A stretch of DNA of 64,000 bases, from the NCBI GenBank assembly GCA_001627865.1, contig LUQO01000045.1, positions 37,728 through 101,727 on the forward strand. Reading direction: 5' to 3'. The DNA comes from SAR324 cluster bacterium REDSEA-S27_B3 (GTDB lineage Bacteria > SAR324 > NAC60-12). How positions within the stretch are numbered: position 1 is the first letter of the stretch; each line of letters begins with the position of its first letter. The translations under genes and the position numbers were made by a program. Below, in pieces: positions 17,154-27,094 of the stretch. The notes under the pieces are model-generated. The model was not told where the DNA came from. It was given only the letters and a program-made list of their open reading frames with translations, and did not search any database.

Positions 17154-18566
17154 ATGATTAAAAATGGCTCAATTTCTGAGATGGCAATTCAGCAGATTTG
17201 GCTGGAAAAAAATTTTGATCAGAACAATCTGCAAACGGTTTGCGGTCAACCTGTCATAATAGAATTTTCCGGATGGCATAACACCGGAAGCGGACCTGAT
17301 TTTAAGGAGGCACATTTGCAAATCGGAGATCAAGCGCTTTTTGGTGGGGTGGAAATACATTTACAAACTTCCGGATGGTATTCGCATCAGCACCAAAGTA
17401 ATCCGGATTACAATGAAGTGATTTTGCACGTTGTCCTGTACCACAGCGGAAATCGTACAATTGAGCGAGCAGACGGTCGAAAGATTCCGGAACTGGAACT
17501 TGCTCCTTTTTTGATTGATGAACCTTCATGCTCCTCAGCAGACGCAAAATTACAGCTTGAAAAAATGGGAGGTTTGCCGGGACGTTGCGGCATTGCTGTT
17601 ACAGAACAAGGTGCAGGAATTCTGAAGAAAATTCTTGGACATGCTGCAGAAAAACGCATTCAGGAAAAAATGAAGATTTTGCTGGAACGCTGGGAAGAAC
17701 AGCATCCTGAGGAACTGCTGTTTCAACTGTTGTTTAAATCACTGGGTTATTCTCCATTCTCACAGGTATTTGAAGAACTGGCAAAGCAATATCAGTTTAA
17801 GGAGCTTCGCCCATTTTTTCGACAGCCGCAGCGTACTGCAAGAACAATGGTACTGTCACGCTGGTTTGGAGCATGTGGTCTGTTTAATAATAAAAATACA
17901 ATTGCAGATCCAACTGTACGTCATGAGTTTCAGCAATGGAGAGATGCATGGATAGCACTTGAAGATCAACCGAGAGTATCAGGAAAAAATTCACTGGCAC
18001 ATCGTCCACAAAATTCTCCTGAAAGAAGGTTGATGGGAATGTACCACCATTTATGCCGTGTGGCAAATGAAGGTTTGCTCAAACGATGGCTTGTCACACT
18101 CAGCAAACTGGCTGCTTTTACTGATGAGAAAAAATTGAGAAAACACGTATTAACTGAAACAGATCAGTTATTTTCTACTCCGGACTGGGAAGTATGGCAG
18201 AAACATCTTGTTATGGGACAATCAACACAGACAAAATCCACACAATTAGTGGGCAAAGACAGACAAATCATTATCTGGGCAAATGCCCTACTGCCTTTTT
18301 TCCTGGCTTATGCTCGTCAGGGAAAAGAACTGCAACTGGAAAAACTGCTCTTTCGTTTATTTATGATTTTACCGGCAGAAGCTTCTAACAGAAATACTCG
18401 TTTCATGCAGAAACGATTATGGTATTCTGAAATGCCCAAATCTCCTAAACTAAATCTAAACACCTTTGGAAACCGACAGGGTTTGATCCAGATTCATCAA
18501 GATTTTTGCCGCAACTTTTATCAGGGCTGTGTTCGTTGTGAATTGCCCGGACTTTTAGAAGGTTAA
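17154..18566 (+). CDS. DUF2851 family protein
   Basis: This 470-aa protein matches the DUF2851 family in its N-terminal third: QQIWLEKNFD, then NTGSGPDFKEAHLQIG, GGVEIHLQTSGWYSHQH and YNEVILHVVLYH. The function of this family is unknown to me. The EIH, WYSHQH and VILHVV histidines and the GPDF motif look like a possible metal or catalytic site, which is inference. The C-terminus ends in a cysteine pair, FYQGCVRCELPG. The tracked ATG at 17154 is used; an internal ATG at 17181 is possible. It is followed after 8 bp by the first of three lipoprotein genes. Confidence 0.8.
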   Translation: MIKNGSISEMAIQQIWLEKNFDQNNLQTVCGQPVIIEFSGWHNTGSGPDFKEAHLQIGDQALFGGVEIHLQTSGWYSHQHQSNPDYNEVILHVVLYHSGNRTIERADGRKIPELELAPFLIDEPSCSSADAKLQLEKMGGLPGRCGIAVTEQGAGILKKILGHAAEKRIQEKMKILLERWEEQHPEELLFQLLFKSLGYSPFSQVFEELAKQYQFKELRPFFRQPQRTARTMVLSRWFGACGLFNNKNTIADPTVRHEFQQWRDAWIALEDQPRVSGKNSLAHRPQNSPERRLMGMYHHLCRVANEGLLKRWLVTLSKLAAFTDEKKLRKHVLTETDQLFSTPDWEVWQKHLVMGQSTQTKSTQLVGKDRQIIIWANALLPFFLAYARQGKELQLEKLLFRLFMILPAEASNRNTRFMQKRLWYSEMPKSPKLNLNTFGNRQGLIQIHQDFCRNFYQGCVRCELPGLLEG

Positions 18567-18574
18567 TAGCTGCT

Positions 18575-19867
18575 ATGAAAAAAACAGGAATTCACCACAA
18601 TATTTTCACAAGAATTTTGTTGTGTACAATTGTATTTATTTCAGCATGTGCAGCGCCAACACTTACTCAATTTGAAGTACAGCGTCCTTCCAGAATCACT
18701 GTTCCCAGTGAGGTAAAAAAAGTTTTTATTCGTGAAGATCTGGTTGTAAACACAAATGATCAGCTTGGCATTAAATCCCAGGTATTGAAACAATTAGCCT
18801 CGGAACTAAATCGAATGGGACGCTTCGAGGTAAGTGTTGTGCAAACTTTGGAGGAGAACAACATTGATGCTGAAAAGGAAACCGTGGCAGTTATTCAAGG
18901 TGAAGTAATCAGTGGAGGTGAAGTGGACAAAGGACAATTTACTGACCTGGCCACCTGCACAGGGGGAATCAGTGGGAGACTATCTTCTGCCACTGCCGCG
19001 GGCATTACTGACAAAGCCATTACTTTGGATAATTGGAGAGGTTATGTCTGCCGGAGAGGTGCTTTTGCCAGTGATGTAACGGAACTGGCTCTTTCTTCCG
19101 CATTTGCTTTGGCAGGATTTGAAGAGGGTATCCCGCCAAAAAACCAGGTTGTGCGAACATATAAATACAAAAATCTTTCCCTGTTTGCACAAGCTAATTT
19201 CAGTTTCACAATCATTGGCCTTAAAAGAGAAACACTAGCTATTCGCGCAGATTCAGCAAACTTTGGTAGAAGCATTACTGAAAAAGATTCTTACCGAAAT
19301 GTCAAAGAAAGCCACTTGATTTCGCTGACATTGGGCAGCCTGATCAGCAGCATCAGGATACCTATTTTTCCTATTCCTTCACGTGAACTTGCCTTAGCCG
19401 GACGCAGCAATCCAAAACGTATTTTTTATGGGAAGAACCGTTTACCAGTTCCTGGAAAACACGATTTGCCTTCCAAAGAAAAGAAACAGGTAATTCAGAA
19501 ATTAGTGTTTAAAACACTTGAATCATTTATCCGCACAATTTCTCCCTACAAGGTGATGGTAAATGCAGAAGTCGCAAACGGTGGTAAAGAAGAAGCGGCA
19601 AAATTATTAATAGAAGGGAAACCGGAAAATGCACGGAAGATATTTCAATCAATTCCGGAGGGCGATCGTGATTCGGCAGACTGGTATAATCTGGGCTTGG
19701 CTTATGAAGCCGGCGCTGTCAGTCTGGAAGATTATGAAGATGCACGAAGATATTACATTATAGCGCTTGAAAAAGATCCGGGCACAAAACTTTATGCTCA
19801 AGCTATCGGACGCATCCGTCGTTATCTGGCTGAAACAGGAAAACTTTCAAAACAAACTCAAAAGTAA
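18575..19867 (+). CDS. TPR lipoprotein, paralog 1 of 3
   Basis: A signal peptide with lipobox FISAC puts the mature protein on a membrane as a lipoprotein. The N-terminal part after the lipobox (FEVQRPSRITVPSEVKKVFI) resembles the two following gene products. The C-terminus contains one clear TPR-like unit (DWYNLGLAYEAG, then ARRYYIIALEKDPGTKLY). The middle has a small, Gly- and Ser-containing region with four cysteines and no motif I recognise. At 430 aa it is the longest of the trio. The gene starts 8 bp after the DUF2851 stop and is probably co-transcribed with it. Function unknown. Confidence 0.75.
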   Translation: MKKTGIHHNIFTRILLCTIVFISACAAPTLTQFEVQRPSRITVPSEVKKVFIREDLVVNTNDQLGIKSQVLKQLASELNRMGRFEVSVVQTLEENNIDAEKETVAVIQGEVISGGEVDKGQFTDLATCTGGISGRLSSATAAGITDKAITLDNWRGYVCRRGAFASDVTELALSSAFALAGFEEGIPPKNQVVRTYKYKNLSLFAQANFSFTIIGLKRETLAIRADSANFGRSITEKDSYRNVKESHLISLTLGSLISSIRIPIFPIPSRELALAGRSNPKRIFYGKNRLPVPGKHDLPSKEKKQVIQKLVFKTLESFIRTISPYKVMVNAEVANGGKEEAAKLLIEGKPENARKIFQSIPEGDRDSADWYNLGLAYEAGAVSLEDYEDARRYYIIALEKDPGTKLYAQAIGRIRRYLAETGKLSKQTQK

Positions 19868-19897
19868 AACAACATAACAAAATTTTTGATAAATTAT

Positions 19898-21028
19898 ATG
19901 ATTAATCAAATACAATCAATACTTTTCTCCACCGTATTCCTGCTGTCGAGTTGCGCCACAGCCACACTTAATGTTCGTTCTCCAGCTGAAATCAATACCA
20001 GGGAGATTAAAAAAGTTGCAGTAGGCGGCTTTGAGATTGGTCAGATTGTGATGAAGTATAAAACTGAAAGAAACGGTGCTTGGGAAATGTACCCTGTTTT
20101 GCTGAGTGAAGCACAACAGAAAACGATCAGCCGCTCTGTAAGGGCACGTGTCATAAACATGTTAACAAGCACACCGTACTTTAAAGTAGTATTTACAGAT
20201 GAATTTGAAAAGCTGGAAAGTGACGCGGCCCTTCAGCAATTAGTTTCTGTACGTGGTTACAAAACACAGGACGTTGATGCGGTTATCAATGGGAAACTCT
20301 GGCTTGAAATAGAACGGACTGACGGCGTTGACCTGAGCAAAGAAAGCCTGGAATACATTAGGCCGCCTCGTTCCAGACGCAGTCTTGGCTTAAACCTTAC
20401 AGTGGATCAGGTAGTTTGGTGGCCTTACAAATCTGTACGTGGAAGTTTGGCTCTTGAAGTAAAAATGACTCGTTTAGTCCCGACAGAAGTTTTAGCCTCA
20501 ACATTTGAAACACGAACTTTTGCTCAGAGAATCGGAGGAAGAAACAAGGAAAGTTTTCAGCAAATTTCCCATAGCATTACCAACACTTTTATTTCTTCCA
20601 AATCCGACCAAACAGATTCAATTGAAACGTCTGAAGAAGTTCTCCCTTCCTTTGACCAAATAATTGCTGATCTGGCACTTTCAATTGCCAGTAATTTTGT
20701 ACGCAGGGTTGCAGTAACAGAGAAAACTGTCATTTACCCAATTGCAAATGAAGGGCTCCCAAATTCCATATTATTAATCGAAGCAGGAGCATACGATCTA
20801 GCAATACAACAACTGCAATTGGCCACTGCTGAAAATCCAGACCCGAATGATCTTTACAATCTTGGTCTTTGCTTTGAGGCAATAGGAGATTATGGACTGG
20901 CAAACACATCATACAGGGAAGCCTGGGAAGCTGAACCGGAGAACCTTCTCTTTGCACAGGGAATGGGACGCATAGAAAGACTGAAACGCGAGTACCCTCA
21001 ACTTCAGAGACAGCTTGAATCACGCTAA
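19898..21028 (+). CDS. TPR lipoprotein, paralog 2 of 3
   Basis: The tracked start is a TTG at 19886; the ATG four codons later (MINQIQSILFSTVFLLSSC) gives a normal signal peptide with lipobox LLSSC, so I use it. The post-lipobox segment (LNVRSPAEINTREIKKVAVG) and the C-terminal TPR-like unit (DLYNLGLCFEAIGDYGLA) parallel paralogs 1 and 3. A middle segment, KVAVGGFEIGQIV, recalls the opening beta strand of CsgG-like lipoproteins, but the match is weak. Located 30 bp after paralog 1 and 86 bp before paralog 3. Function unknown. Confidence 0.75.
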   Translation: MINQIQSILFSTVFLLSSCATATLNVRSPAEINTREIKKVAVGGFEIGQIVMKYKTERNGAWEMYPVLLSEAQQKTISRSVRARVINMLTSTPYFKVVFTDEFEKLESDAALQQLVSVRGYKTQDVDAVINGKLWLEIERTDGVDLSKESLEYIRPPRSRRSLGLNLTVDQVVWWPYKSVRGSLALEVKMTRLVPTEVLASTFETRTFAQRIGGRNKESFQQISHSITNTFISSKSDQTDSIETSEEVLPSFDQIIADLALSIASNFVRRVAVTEKTVIYPIANEGLPNSILLIEAGAYDLAIQQLQLATAENPDPNDLYNLGLCFEAIGDYGLANTSYREAWEAEPENLLFAQGMGRIERLKREYPQLQRQLESR

Positions 21029-21114
21029 TTTATTATTAAACGCAGAACCGAGAATTTTTATTCACATACAAATGCTGATTATACAATTCTGTTAACCTAT
21101 CTAACCTCACGCAA

Positions 21115-22305
21115 ATGTACCTCAGAGTATTTATCTTTTTGATAATAGGTTTAACAGCAACTTCCTGTGCTCCAAAAATCAGCTTCAAAATTCAACGGCC
21201 TCCGCTCCAACAAGTAGTACAAATTAAATACATAGAAATCGGAAAATTTGAAATTGTCTCCGGACAAATTGAAATGCCAAAATCAGAAAAGTCCCAACTT
21301 TCAAAATATGCAAATACGAGAGAACAAACTTTGAAACCTGCCATTTCAGGTTTCAAATCAAAAAAGGTAGAATCCGATCAAATTACAGAATTGCTCAGGG
21401 CCGCACTTGTTCATGACCTTTCTCTTCATTCTCCTTATCAGCTGATTAACACAACAGGAGATAAAGATGGTTACAGCGGTGTAGTGCCAAATGTTGACGA
21501 AGTGGCGGTCATAAGCGGGAAAATAAAATTTTTTGAGATGAATATTGAGTCAGGTGAGGATCTTTCATATTTCGCAAATATTCATAACAAAGGGGTTAGA
21601 CTGGAGCAATCATTGCTGGCAAGTGCTGTTGCAATGGGGATGGAATCATCCGGAAGCGGATTTGTTATTCCTACTCCTTATATTGAAAGACTGGCTGCAA
21701 TTGAAGTTGAAATTTTTATGATCAGAAAAAGTAACAAAGAAAATGTTGTCAGTCCGCAAACATTTCGTTCTTACTATACCCGCAAATGGGGTGGATCTCC
21801 TAAAACTTCACATCTGCCGGGAATTGTCAGGAAGACCATTTTAGAGGATTTTCAACAAGATGAAGATTCTTCATTATCATTACTTTCGAGCATTGATAGA
21901 GCTGGTCTGTCATTTACAAACCCAACTGAATATTTTGCAAGAGGATTCAATCTTAAACAGAATAAAGATGTACCTCAAACTTCACTGGATCTGAAAATAA
22001 GACTGGGAAGAGACATTGCCAAACAATTTGTCAAGCAAATCAGCCCTTATCACGAGACAGCAGATTTAATGGTACAGGATGGAAATTCAGTTGCCGCAAC
22101 ACTGATACGTGGGAATGCATACCAGCAAGCAATAGCTTTTCTTCAAAATTTTGACAAACGTACAGCAGAAGATGAATACAATCTTGGTTTAGCTTTTGAA
22201 GCCAGCGGAGAAATACCTATGGCAAGAAAACACTATGTACTTGCTCTTGACCGTGAAAACGATAATCAGGAATTTAAAAATGCGGTAAGACGCACTCAAT
22301 ATTGA
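21115..22305 (+). CDS. TPR lipoprotein, paralog 3 of 3
   Basis: Signal peptide MYLRVFIFLIIGLTATSC ends in a lipobox-like TATSC. The shared layout is repeated: an RP motif after the lipobox (FKIQRPPLQQVVQIKYIEIG), a long mixed middle part, the FVKQISPYHE block (FIRTISPYKV in paralog 1), and a terminal TPR-like unit (DEYNLGLAFEASGEIPMARK). At 396 aa it is close in size to the others. It is followed within 5 bp by a strong terminator hairpin, so it ends the DUF2851-lipoprotein transcription unit. Function unknown. Confidence 0.75.
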   Translation: MYLRVFIFLIIGLTATSCAPKISFKIQRPPLQQVVQIKYIEIGKFEIVSGQIEMPKSEKSQLSKYANTREQTLKPAISGFKSKKVESDQITELLRAALVHDLSLHSPYQLINTTGDKDGYSGVVPNVDEVAVISGKIKFFEMNIESGEDLSYFANIHNKGVRLEQSLLASAVAMGMESSGSGFVIPTPYIERLAAIEVEIFMIRKSNKENVVSPQTFRSYYTRKWGGSPKTSHLPGIVRKTILEDFQQDEDSSLSLLSSIDRAGLSFTNPTEYFARGFNLKQNKDVPQTSLDLKIRLGRDIAKQFVKQISPYHETADLMVQDGNSVAATLIRGNAYQQAIAFLQNFDKRTAEDEYNLGLAFEASGEIPMARKHYVLALDRENDNQEFKNAVRRTQY

Positions 22306-22310
22306 TTATC

Positions 22311-22341
22311 GGGATTCCTTTTTTACAGGAATCCCTTTTAT
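22311..22341 (+). terminator. Rho-independent terminator of the lipoprotein operon
   Basis: A perfect 8-bp stem, GGGATTCC/GGAATCCC (22311-22318 with 22328-22335), and a 9-base loop are followed by TTTTATT. It lies just after the paralog 3 stop codon and directly abuts the end of the convergent HTH gene. Confidence 0.85.
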
Positions 22342-22775
22342 TAATTGAGACCGGCTAGTTCCTTGTGAGGATCATTCTTCGTATCAAAGAATGGAAAGGG
22401 TATTTTCAAAGCTCGTGAAATACGCTCCAGAGAGGCCTCTGACACCTCTGCCGCATGCGATTCCCAGCTTTTTACAGTTTGAATTGCAAAACCATGTTCA
22501 TATGCAAAGGCCTCGATCGACATGCCTCGTAGCAAGCGGGCGTATTTGATGCGATCACCTATCCTGTCAAGATTAAGGTCTTCATCCAGCCCCATCTCTC
22601 GCACATCAATAGACAATACTTTGGCAATTTCACTGTATTTGGTTAGTTTAGGTGTTGAGTGTCCTGTTTCCCAATTTTTTACCGCAGTCAGCGATACGCT
22701 AAGTTTTCTGGCAAATTCCTTGCGGGTTAAACCGGAATCTTCCCGCCACTTAGTCATTTGTTCACCAAAATCCAT
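22341..22775 (-). CDS. Tandem-HTH (two XRE domains) regulator
   Basis: Two XRE-like helix-turn-helix domains are joined in one ~144-aa protein. The first is GLTRKEFARKLSVSLTAVKN (then WETGHSTP). The second is MSIEAFAYEHGFAIQTVKSW (then ESHAAEVSEASLERISRAL). The ORF track starts at a TTG (22799), but the ATG at 22775 has AAGAGAG just upstream and gives MDFGEQMTKW. Two HTH domains in a monomer suggest either recognition of an asymmetric site or an intramolecular pseudo-dimer. The target is unknown. Confidence 0.7.
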   Translation of the reverse strand: MDFGEQMTKWREDSGLTRKEFARKLSVSLTAVKNWETGHSTPKLTKYSEIAKVLSIDVREMGLDEDLNLDRIGDRIKYARLLRGMSIEAFAYEHGFAIQTVKSWESHAAEVSEASLERISRALKIPFPFFDTKNDPHKELAGLN

Positions 22776-22912
22776 TTGACTCTCTTGTTTTGTTAGCAAT
22801 TTAATATCTGTACAGGATTATCTTTTTTCCCCTCATTGTTGTTGGTATTCTTTCAAAATACTCGGGGAATTTTCAAAGCACTAAGGTGTAATTCTTTTCC
22901 TGAGCTTTGCAT

Positions 22913-23110: not shown

Positions 23111-23163
23111 TTGACAATCATGAAAAAAATGAAATATAATTAACCGTGCGGTCGGTTAATTAT
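23111..23163 (+). promoter_or_regulatory. Consensus sigma-70 promoter overlapped by a perfect TetR-type operator (paa operon)
   Basis: Perfect TTGACA (23111-23116), 18-bp spacer and perfect TATAAT (23135-23140). A perfect inverted repeat with 11-bp arms, ATAATTAACCG-N6-CGGTTAATTAT, spans 23136-23163. It covers five bases of the -10 and the likely start point. The ACCG/CGGT core is typical of TetR-family operators, and an intact TetR gene ends the operon, so that protein is the probable repressor. That pairing is inference; the promoter and palindrome are seen directly. Confidence 0.8.
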
Positions 23164-23195: not shown

Positions 23196-23759
23196 ATGAA
23201 ATCACAAATTACGACTAAAACGATTTCAGGCAAATCAACAGACGAAGAGAAGCATCAAAGTCATTTTGAAGAGCGTATTCAGTCCGGAGAACGAATTGAA
23301 CCAAAGGGCTGGATGCCGGAAAGATTTCGTAAGCAACTTACCAGAATGATTTCTCAGCACGCTCATTCGGAAGTAATTGGTATGTATCCGGAAGGCAATT
23401 GGATCACCCGAGCGCCAACGTTACGGCGTAAGCTTGGTTTGTTGGCAAAAGTTCAGGACGAATGCGGGCATGGTCTTTACTTGTACTGTGCAGCAGAAAC
23501 TCTGGGTGTGGACAGGAATGACCTTTTCGAGGAATTGCTTGATGGCAAAGCTAAATATTCCAGCATATTCAATTACCCCACATTAAGCTGGGCAGATATT
23601 GGAGTGATAGGCTGGTTGGTGGATGGCGCAGCGATTATAAATCAGACTCCATTAGCAAAATGCTCATACGGCCCATACGCCAGAGCCATGAAACATATTT
23701 GCAAGGAGGAAAGCTTTCACCTGTAGCAGGGATTTGAAATTGTCACAAAACTGGCCCAA
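23196..23759 (+). pseudogene. paaA: paaA pseudogene: amber stop, then fused to the end of paaB
   Basis: The product is the alpha subunit of phenylacetyl-CoA 1,2-epoxidase (PaaABCE), an oxygenase of aerobic phenylacetate degradation. The 176-codon ORF matches the PaaA N-terminal half, including two iron-ligand-type motifs (QDECGHG and CKEESFH). A TAG (23724-23726) then interrupts it. The same frame goes on QGFEIVTKLAQ, exactly as in intact PaaA, until about 23759, where homology stops and paaB sequence begins in another frame. Normal PaaA is about 310-330 aa, so roughly 130 or more codons are missing. The gene should be non-functional. Confidence 0.88.
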
Positions 23760-23836
23760 TGTTCTTTGACTCTTCTTCAGACAAAGTTTACAGGCATCCT
23801 CAGTTCTACAGGATTCCAAGAAGTGTGAGGCTTTGA
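23759..23836 (+). pseudogene. paaB: paaB C-terminal remnant
   Basis: In the frame shifted relative to paaA, bases 23759-23836 encode MFFDSSSDKVYRHPQFYRIP and a few more residues to TGA. This matches the conserved PaaB C-terminus (family pattern FFDPA..KVYRHP.FY.IP). About 70 upstream codons of paaB are absent. The TGA overlaps the paaC ATG (TGATG), so the original operon's stop/start overlap is still intact. This fixes the event as an internal deletion joining mid-paaA to late paaB. It is too short for the ORF track. Confidence 0.85.
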
Positions 23837-24609
23837 TGGAACTGACACCTGAACTTCGTATGCATTTGTTAGACTATTTGCTGAGACACGCTGACGACAG
23901 GCTGATTCTTGGGCATCGTCTTTCAGAATGTTGTGGTCATGCCCCAATGATGGAAGAAGATTTAGCACTAGCCAATATCGCGCTTGATTTGATTGGACAG
24001 GCATCTTTTATTTACCAGCTTGCTACTGAAACCGAAAATAAAGGCCATACGGAAGATGATTTTGCCTTTCTCCGTGATCCTTCTGAGTTTCGCAACATGC
24101 AGTTAGTGGAACAACCAAATAGTGATTTTGCTTATACCATTGTACGTCAATTTCTCTTTGATGCTTATGACGTTCTTTTTCTGGAAAAACTAAGCTTATC
24201 CGCACATAATCAACGGGCAGGCATTGGTGCAAAGGCCTTGAAAGAGGCAAATTACCATTTGAGACACACCAAACAGTGGATGCTGCGGTTGGGTGATGGT
24301 ACAGACGAAAGTCGCTCCCGCATACAGCATGCATTAAATGAACTCTGGGGATTTTCTGATGAACTGTTTATTCCAGATGAACTGGACCAAATCATGGTGG
24401 CACAAAATATTGGAGTAGACATGGAGTCCCTGCGATCTGCATGGATTGAGGAAGTTGAACAGACCCTGAAGGAAGCAACTTTGAGTAAACCTGGTGATGA
24501 GTTTTACATAGCTTCAGGAAGCCGAAGCGGATACCATACCGAACACTTAAGTCACATGCTTGCAGAGATGCAGGTTTTACAGCGAACACATCCAGGAGCT
24601 GAGTGGTGA
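23836..24609 (+). CDS. paaC: PaaC, structural subunit of phenylacetyl-CoA epoxidase
   Basis: PaaC is the ferritin-like partner subunit that structurally supports PaaA. At 257 aa it is of normal length, with conserved stretches LRHADDRLILGHRLSEC, ALANIALDLIGQA and NYHLRHTKQWMLRLGDG. I start at the ATG 23836, which overlaps the paaB TGA, and not at the TTG 23833 of the track. The gene appears intact, although PaaA, its catalytic partner, is destroyed here. It would be orphaned unless another paaA copy exists. Confidence 0.92.
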   Translation: MELTPELRMHLLDYLLRHADDRLILGHRLSECCGHAPMMEEDLALANIALDLIGQASFIYQLATETENKGHTEDDFAFLRDPSEFRNMQLVEQPNSDFAYTIVRQFLFDAYDVLFLEKLSLSAHNQRAGIGAKALKEANYHLRHTKQWMLRLGDGTDESRSRIQHALNELWGFSDELFIPDELDQIMVAQNIGVDMESLRSAWIEEVEQTLKEATLSKPGDEFYIASGSRSGYHTEHLSHMLAEMQVLQRTHPGAEW

Positions 24610-25067
24610 GAGCCTTGGTTTGCCTGCGAACTGTGCCGGATCCTGAAATTCCGGTATTGGATGTGATCTCAATGAGGATTGTACGTGAAATTGATGAAAA
24701 TCCTGATGGAGTCAGGGTGACAATCACTCCGACATATTCAGGATGTCCGGCGATGAAGGAAATTGAATCCAGCATACGCAGCACCTTGAATCAAGCAGGA
24801 TTTGCTAAGGTGTAGATGAAAATTCAAATCTCCCCTCCCTGGACTACAGACTGGATCACAAAAGAAGCACTGGAAAAACTGCGATCCTATGGCATTGCCC
24901 CTCCGAAACGCGCCTGTAATCACAGTGTTGATCAAACCCACGCAGACTGCCCATATTGCGGTTCAGTGAAAACACAACTACAAAGCGAGTTTGGAAGTAC
25001 ACCATGCAAGAGTCTGCATGTCTGCAAAAATTGTCACCAGCCATTTGAAAGTTTCAAATGCATCTGA
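24606..25067 (+). pseudogene. paaD: paaD with in-frame amber stop
   Basis: PaaD is a SufT-like maturation factor for the phenylacetyl-CoA epoxidase. The first part is PDPEIPVLDVISM, then VTITPTYSGCPAM. A TAG (24813-24815) follows GFAKV. In the same frame the gene resumes QISPPWTTDWITKEALEKLR and ends with the zinc-ribbon-like CPYCG, EFGSTPCKSLHVCKNC and FKCI of normal PaaD. Joined, the two halves make about 153 codons, close to the usual ~160. GTG 24606 overlaps the paaC TGA, as in functional operons. No paaE follows. Confidence 0.88.
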
Positions 25068-25792: not shown

Positions 25793-27090
25793 AGTTTGAT
25801 CAGTCGTATCATACTGTATTGTTAAATAAAACCATTCAAAATAAGGTGTTACCGACTTCAGCTAATTAATTTTCTCATATATTGTGTTAAGCTCCATAAT
25901 TTGGAGTTTAGCATGTTCAAAGGTCAGTATGTTTTTTCACAAATCACAGATCATTTACCTCTTCACACTTTTCGCAGGTGTGTTGAACGCTACCTGGGGG
26001 AGCGGTATGTAAAACATTTCAAATGCTTTGATCAGTACTTGGCAATGTCGTTTGCTCAGCTAACTCATCGTGAGAGTCTCCGTGATATTGAAGCCTGCCT
26101 TCAGGCTCATAGCAGTAAACTCTATCATATGGGTTTTCGATCATCAATTTCCAGAAGTACACTGGCAGATGCAAACGAGCAACGAGACTGGCGAATTTAT
26201 GCGGACTTTGCTCAAGCACTAATCAGGATTGCCCGACCTCTTTATGCTGGTGATCAGCTGGAATTGGATCTAAAAAATACTGTTTATGCACTTGATGCAT
26301 CTACGATTGATCTTTGTTTTTCTGTTTTTCCATGGGCACTCTTTCGATCCACAAAGTCTGCGGTTAAACTCCATACCCTGCTTGATTTAAGAGGGAACAT
26401 TCCGTCATTCGTTCATATCTCAGAGGGTAAGCTGCATGATGTCAACGCCCTTGATATGATTGTTCCAGAAGCAGGCTCTTTTTATGTGATGGATAGAGGT
26501 TACCTGGATTTCGAGCGACTTTACTCTTTGAATAATGCTGGTGCTTTCTTCGTGATTCGCTCAAAAAATAATATCCAGTTTAAACGCAGATACTCTCACT
26601 CCGTTAAAAAATCAAGTGGAATTCGGTGTGACCAAACTATTAAACTGATAGGGTTAAACACAAAAAATAAATATCCAAAACCGTTGCGGCGAGTTAAATA
26701 CCATGATAACCAGACAGATAAAACACTTAATCTTTTTACCAACAACGAGGTCATATCAGCACAAACAGTGGCTGATCTTTACCGGTACAGATGGAAAGTC
26801 GAACTCTTTTTTAAGTGGATTAAGCAACATCTGCGTATAAGATCTTTTTATGGTACATCTGAAAATGCTGTCAAGAGTCAAATATGGATTGCTATTTCAA
26901 TTTATGTGCTAATAGCAATTATCAAAAAACAACTAAAAATAAAGGCAGAACTCTACACAATTTTACAGATTTTGAGCCTGACTCTATTTGAAAAAATACC
27001 ATTAAAACAATTACTTGAAAATAAACACTGCATGACGCAAATTCACGAATATGCTATCCAACTGAATTTATTCGATAACTTAACCGGACA
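25778..27090 (+). mobile_element. Complete IS4-family insertion sequence
   Basis: A 1,313-bp element with one transposase ORF. Its ends are inverted repeats TGTCCGGTTAAATTA (left) and TGTCCGGTTAAGTTA (right, read inward), matching in 14 of 15 bases. Each end is preceded by CTAG, a likely 4-bp target duplication. Because CTAG is palindromic, it could alternatively be the outer part of longer inverted repeats; identity in fact continues outward through ATCA. It separates the tetR gene from a truncated hppD. Confidence 0.85.
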
Positions 27091-27094
27091 CTAG
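25913..27094 (+). CDS. IS4-family DDE transposase
   Basis: The tracked start is a TTG (25901); the ATG 25913 has GGAG six bases upstream and is preferred, giving 393 aa. An N-terminal DUF4372-like region ([20 protein letters not shown]) precedes the DDE catalytic core. First Asp: [11 protein letters not shown]. Second Asp: [11 protein letters not shown]. Glu in the IS4 signature Y-2-R-3-E-6-[18 protein letters not shown]. All three catalytic residues are present and the frame is intact, so the enzyme may be active. The TAG stop at 27092-27094 lies inside the flanking CTAG. Confidence 0.93.
27076..27094 (-). repeat. IS right inverted repeat with flanking CTAG
   Basis: Read inward on the minus strand: CTAG (27094-27091), then TGTCCGGTTAAGTTA (27090-27076). 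The CTAG supplies stop codons for genes on both strands. Confidence 0.8.

Follow-up and report, generated by a model that had tools for sequence, protein, structure and literature searches.

Three adjacent lipoprotein genes, here called LP1, LP2 and LP3, lie in a stretch of 64,000 nucleotides from SAR324 cluster bacterium REDSEA-S27_B3 (assembly GCA_001627865.1, contig LUQO01000045.1, positions 37,728 to 101,727), and they raise the question of whether such strongly diverged neighbors are kin, to which known proteins they are related, and whether their products work together. The whole stretch is referred to as the window; it comes from a draft assembly of 3.3 Mb and 88% completeness, representing a deep-sea lineage for which we know of no cultured model. 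CsgG-type lipoproteins are known for homo-oligomeric rings that serve secretion and the assembly of the envelope. Our comparisons suggest with good confidence that LP1, LP2 and LP3 belong to a superfamily in which a CsgG-like domain is combined with C-terminal tetratricopeptide repeats (TPRs), and, with less assurance, that the three are joined in a hetero-oligomeric assembly of the cell envelope.

All three predicted products begin, by inspection, with a signal peptide followed by a lipobox cysteine, the pattern of bacterial lipoproteins (ISAC in LP1, LSSC in LP2, ATSC in LP3), and this cysteine is invariant in the family alignments A1, A2 and A4. Behind it come, always in the same order, an RP/SPAE motif (VQRPSRI, VRSPAEI and IQRPPLQ, respectively), a strand (VKKVFI, IKKVAV and IKYIEI), an ISPY/VAVT-type block and a terminal TPR-like unit with YNLGL; open reading frames (ORFs), lipoboxes, motifs and repeat units are all as given in a preliminary description of the locus. 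The start of LP2 is a TTG, aligned with the ATG of several orthologs, and an alternative ATG lies at 19898. Pfam TPR scores of LP1 to LP3 stay under the curated cut-offs, and scans of the window's lipoproteins with Pfam and NCBIfam returned nothing beyond such sub-threshold TPR matches; in the LP2/LP3 family alignment, TPR families were detected in 26 of the 27 members (E up to 1; best 4.4e-7, PF00515). The C-terminal module had been described as a single TPR: the module is there, and the count is a slight understatement, because the LP2 model shows about two C-terminal helical hairpins (helices 290-295, 299-312, 316-328, 332-345 and 350-365).

The kinship of the three proteins is visible within their own genome, where a search with LP2 found, besides itself, only LP1 (3.3e-8) and LP3 (1.4e-5), both matches running through the C-terminal ~120 residues; phmmer comparisons among the three gave 1e-7 to 2e-10, and the profiles of the three ortholog families matched one another at 99.7-99.9% for all three pairs. 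Since signal peptides and TPRs are able to drive profile scores, both were stripped before the families were compared again. LP2 and LP3 still matched (96.4% across 251 columns), and LP1 alone dropped to 2.2% against LP2 and 34.1% against LP3, which is no match; a match was regained (92.0%, E 6.6e-7, 157 columns) when LP1 together with LP1b, its counterpart in the second triplet considered below, was compared with the joined N-domains of LP2, LP3 and LP2b. Because their N-domains match without signal peptide and TPR, LP2 and LP3 are, on sequence grounds, paralogs along their full length; judged likewise, the C-terminal module is clearly common to LP1 and LP2/LP3, and the N-terminal domain of LP1 is probably common to them as well. 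The origin by old duplication proposed in the preliminary description finds support in both the profile comparisons and the own-genome matches (E 1e-8 to 1e-5).

That description recognized no known system in this layout, and here it has to be corrected. Lipoproteins with a CsgG domain (PF03783) and TPRs, some of which also match DUF6340 (PF19867), are encoded as single genes in SAR324 (at locus L061, and at L056, where the gene immediately precedes the triplet) as well as in other phyla (L119-L124), with PF03783 scores of 3e-10 and 1e-5 in the former and 5e-18 to 7e-7 in the latter. An N-domain profile of LP2, LP3 and LP2b matched the CsgG domains of these proteins at 97.0% (hhalign, E 9e-11), with none of eight column-shuffled nulls per query above 0.8%. 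The relatives share with the triplet the lipobox, an (R)PAEI-type motif (RVPAEI or KPAVI) ahead of a KRVAV-like first strand, an IAPY-type block and a C-terminal TPR with YNLG, in the same order, and L122 has RVPAEIDVGDIERVAVADF at the place of VRSPAEINTREIKKVAVGGF in LP2. Given this match of the N-domain profiles, the layout common to the triplet is that of the CsgG-TPR (DUF6340-like) lipoproteins, in which the lipobox is followed by a CsgG-like domain and then by a C-terminal TPR. The relationship is direct for LP2 and LP3 and, for LP1, runs only through these two. Membership of all three in the superfamily appears very likely, with the difference that the relatives found are single genes, whereas here there is a triplet with partners of its own, too diverged for Pfam. 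PF03783 is not listed by Pfam for the 27 LP2/LP3 family members, DUF6340 gives no direct Pfam match in LP1 to LP3 or in that family, and when the sequences of the PDB were searched with the LP2/LP3 profile, only TPR stretches matched.

An AlphaFold model of LP2, made with 22 sequences (pTM 0.44), has a core of alternating strands and helices plus helical hairpins, and a Foldseek search of the PDB matched it to HpaA, CsgG (4uv2), PelC, FlgT, XCC0632 (DUF330) and GNA1162 with probabilities of 0.96-1.00 and E of 5e-6 to 1e-3. Structure prediction had been put forward as a check on common descent; the models do not show three unrelated folds, that of LP2 being CsgG-like and that of LP1 uninformative outside its TPR. 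PelC, CsgG, GNA1162, DUF330 and HpaA form a group that has the predicted fold and acyl anchoring in common with LP2 but, unlike LP1 to LP3, carries no TPR at the C-terminus of the chain itself. Twelve PelC lipoproteins make up a ring, which instead contacts the TPRs of its partner PelB (PMC12141448).

The distribution of the three genes is narrow. Among 253 genomes, full-length matches to the LP2/LP3 profile were found in SAR324 only, and outside it no triplets were seen, the matches there being to lone CsgG-TPR genes or to TPRs by themselves. LP1 and LP2 have orthologs in the same genera of SAR324, in families f1 and f3; family f2 and genera g3, g5, g6 and g22 lack them, the three weak P0002 matches there (two in f2, one in g6) being to TPR-only proteins or to CsgG-TPR proteins of the single-gene kind. 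In most bearers LP1, LP2 and LP3 are contiguous in this order, and the conservation in related genomes on which the preliminary description had staked its proposal is evident in both families. A tree built from the C-terminal module gives one well-supported clade per subunit (LP1 99/99, LP2 100/99, LP3 98/88), so the three subunit identities are older than the split between f1 and f3.

A second triplet, LP1b-LP2b-LP3b, is present in the same order in several genomes of the window's genus and in genus g24; no copy of it turned up in the assembly from which the window comes. Full-length profile comparison pairs each subunit best with its namesake (LP1-LP1b 93.6-96.4%, LP2-LP2b 99.8%, LP3-LP3b 99.5%); LP3 and LP3b also form a clade in the C-terminal-module tree (95/89), and the assignment of LP2b to LP2 is based on the full-length comparison, the tree leaving LP2b unplaced. 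The whole set has thus been copied once, and the subunit roles were retained on duplication. Proteins of the second triplet (LP2b of L068, and L058) also match the model of LipL41 (NF033161) with 16.7-18.7 bits, in the TPR region only and far under the NCBIfam cut-off of 400 bits, and no window protein matches it in NCBIfam; LipL41 of Leptospira, a ~355-aa lipoprotein, has an undefined N-terminal domain followed by two C-terminal TPRs and assembles into a double-layered 36-mer (PMC3861479).

Two further lipoproteins accompany the triplets. The c8 product (~460 aa) has an invariant lipobox cysteine and a weak likeness to FlgT_N (0.088 in 2 of 12 members), and a PDB sequence search with its profile gave nothing meaningful; c9 encodes a HEAT-repeat lipoprotein (PF13646, 2e-20). 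The c8-c9 pair stands directly before triplet 1 in L048 and L052-L054, with a FecR-domain gene intervening in L046. In L063 it precedes triplet 2, as it does in L068, where one unrelated gene intervenes. Counted per SAR324 genus and uncorrected for phylogeny, c8 and LP2 are both present in 11, both missing in 14, and c8 is found alone in 1. The pair is better linked to the triplet than the DUF2851 gene that precedes LP1 in the window.

Because order is conserved, presence and absence are shared and the set was duplicated subunit for subunit, the three lipoproteins probably act as parts of one machine, and the single complex envisaged in the preliminary description is favored on the same grounds. 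On balance we lean toward three CsgG/PelC-like TPR lipoproteins joined in a hetero-oligomeric envelope assembly. Their CsgG/PelC relationship predicts an outer-membrane location, where the CsgG-like domains would line the periplasmic face of the membrane side by side in a hetero-oligomeric collar, much as PelC and CsgG assemble as homo-oligomers, the TPR modules would point into the periplasm and dock neighbors or clients, and c8 and c9 would belong to or serve the same assembly; its likely role would be that of a scaffold or gate in an envelope or export machine. The PelC ring and the LipL41 particle are the analogies for this arrangement. A more far-reaching proposal, which we offer only tentatively, is a SAR324-specific hetero-oligomeric outer-membrane machine of five lipoproteins, the three CsgG-TPR subunits together with the FlgT_N-like and the HEAT-repeat lipoprotein, in which a CsgG/PelC-type ring, normally homo-oligomeric, has turned into a three-subunit one and has been kept in that form through duplication of the set.

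Several observations weigh against such an assembly and the assignment beneath it. In genus g2, LP1 lies apart from LP2-LP3, beside a peptide-release-factor-3 gene; LP1b is without a TPR module; and the window's genome has c8-c9 on a different contig from the triplet. PF03783 gives no direct Pfam match in LP1 to LP3. Model confidence is low (pLDDT 62 for LP2 and 57 for LP1), the Foldseek query TM-scores of the LP2 model are ~0.2-0.26, as expected of a rough model, and the LP1 model, apart from a weak match to the HpaA family at probability 0.21, gave no CsgG-type match and recovered only TPRs. Some of this would suit paralogs working alone or as homo-oligomers on separate clients, with adjacency due to co-regulation or tandem duplication: CsgG, PelC and LipL41 are all homo-oligomers, the subunits have strongly diverged from one another, LP1 is unlinked in g2, the TPR was lost from LP1b, and other phyla have CsgG-TPR lipoproteins as single genes. 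An order kept across two families, the presence or absence of LP1 and LP2 together, and a set duplicated with subunits corresponding one to one speak rather for joint action, and we regard independent action as unlikely, if still credible.

The superfamily of the components is known; of the triplet arrangement, its fixed subunit identities, the duplication of the set and the two lipoprotein partners we found no description in the papers searchable, nor anything relevant there on SAR324 lipoproteins, DUF6340 or DUF2851. That a triplet is conserved, keeps the identities of its subunits fixed and has been duplicated as a set suggests that CsgG-type rings can evolve into hetero-oligomers, and an unnamed protein family is now tied to a named fold, with testable partners.

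A secretion pore, with one or more subunits inserting CsgG-like beta-hairpins into the outer membrane to export protein or polysaccharide, seems improbable: CsgG is among the matches of the LP2 model, and the LP1 and LP2 models have long low-confidence insertions between core strands, but there are no curli or Pel-type genes among the identified neighbors, and several lipoproteins of the CsgG fold, PelC and GNA1162 among them, are to our knowledge not pores by themselves. Membership in a ring of the FlgT/FlgO/FlgP kind, placed at the outer membrane around the polar flagellum, is suggested by the matches of the LP2 model to FlgT (3w1e, and 8z5n, the LPHT ring), by the weak FlgT_N likeness of c8, and by the flagellin genes of SAR324. 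Flagellin, however, is present in all sampled SAR324 genomes, including ten (family f2; genera g3, g5 and g6) that have neither the triplet nor c8, and no flagellar genes are among the identified neighbors at the loci examined. The occurrence of the triplet is thus not tied to flagella, we know of no TPR in FlgO, FlgP or FlgT, and we rejected this candidate as very improbable. At L119, in another phylum, a CsgG-TPR lipoprotein with FlgT_C (PF16538, 1.2e-7) has as neighbors a protein with a CsgG/FlgO domain and another two lipoprotein-like ORFs, a multi-lipoprotein neighborhood similar to that of the triplet.

The DUF2851 gene, taken in the preliminary description as the head of the unit, is probably co-transcribed with the triplet in the window, from which it is separated by 8 bases, yet lies outside the conserved unit: it adjoins the triplet only in the window's genus, is on other contigs in triplet-bearing genomes outside it, and occurs in nearly all SAR324 genomes, many without the triplet. 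A single functional system of DUF2851 and triplet, favored by adjacency and probable co-transcription in the one genus, is ruled out for practical purposes by this distribution and linkage, and the DUF2851 protein is probably cytoplasmic, since by eye its N-terminus has no evident signal peptide or lipobox.

Table 1. Coordinates of the triplet, its partners and other features (window positions unless a locus is named).
Feature	Position	Strand	Remarks
DUF2851 gene	17154..18566	+	PF11013, 9.8e-58
LP1 lipoprotein gene	18575..19867	+	430 aa; lipid-anchor Cys25; diverged CsgG-like N-terminal region; C-terminal TPR module ~residues 300-420
LP2 lipoprotein gene	19886..21028	+	CsgG-like domain plus C-terminal TPR module
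LP3 lipoprotein gene	21115..22305	+	396 aa; CsgG-like domain plus C-terminal TPR module
Intrinsic-terminator-like hairpin	22311..22335	+	9 pairs, T-rich tail after
Helix-turn-helix gene (cluster c1)	22341..22799	-	single chain with two HTH_3 (Cro/C1-type) stretches
Promoter-like site	23111..23140		sigma-70 consensus, 12/12 (TTGACA, 18, TATAAT)
Phenylacetyl-CoA epoxidase cluster	23196..25067		looks decayed
paaC	23833..24609		
Transposase	25901..27094		IS4 family (NF033592, 8e-78)
c8-c9 pair	L048:10195-12513; L053:10439-12765; L063:2495-4923		conserved lipoprotein pair
Second triplet	L063:5209-8104; L068:6702-9709; L069; L070; L071; L064; L058:1439-4097; L059:6838-9556		LP1b-LP2b-LP3b
Multi-lipoprotein neighborhood	L119:5693-10902		other phylum

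Within the triplet, LP1 and LP2 are 18 bases apart (from the TTG start) and LP2 and LP3 86 bases, and the hairpin begins 5 bases past the LP3 stop. Terminator-like sites are not enriched as a class in this region (9 observed against 6.9 expected), so this hairpin was judged on stem strength and position. Just past it, on the opposite strand, the helix-turn-helix gene is conserved at that place in the genus. The gene rpsA (S1) is a conserved neighbor, probably a merely positional one: in L056/L057 it adjoins triplet 1, and in the window's genus it adjoins triplet 2. FecR-domain proteins, which lie next to the cluster in L046 and, in L120, next to a CsgG-TPR gene, are recurrent, not general.

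Farther downstream, the phenylacetyl-CoA epoxidase cluster looks decayed: the paaA match covers only model positions 1-152 of 289, no paaB ORF was seen ahead of paaC, and the paaD ORF as listed is without its first ~62 positions. The promoter-like site lies upstream of the truncated paaA, and the transposase gene is near the cluster.

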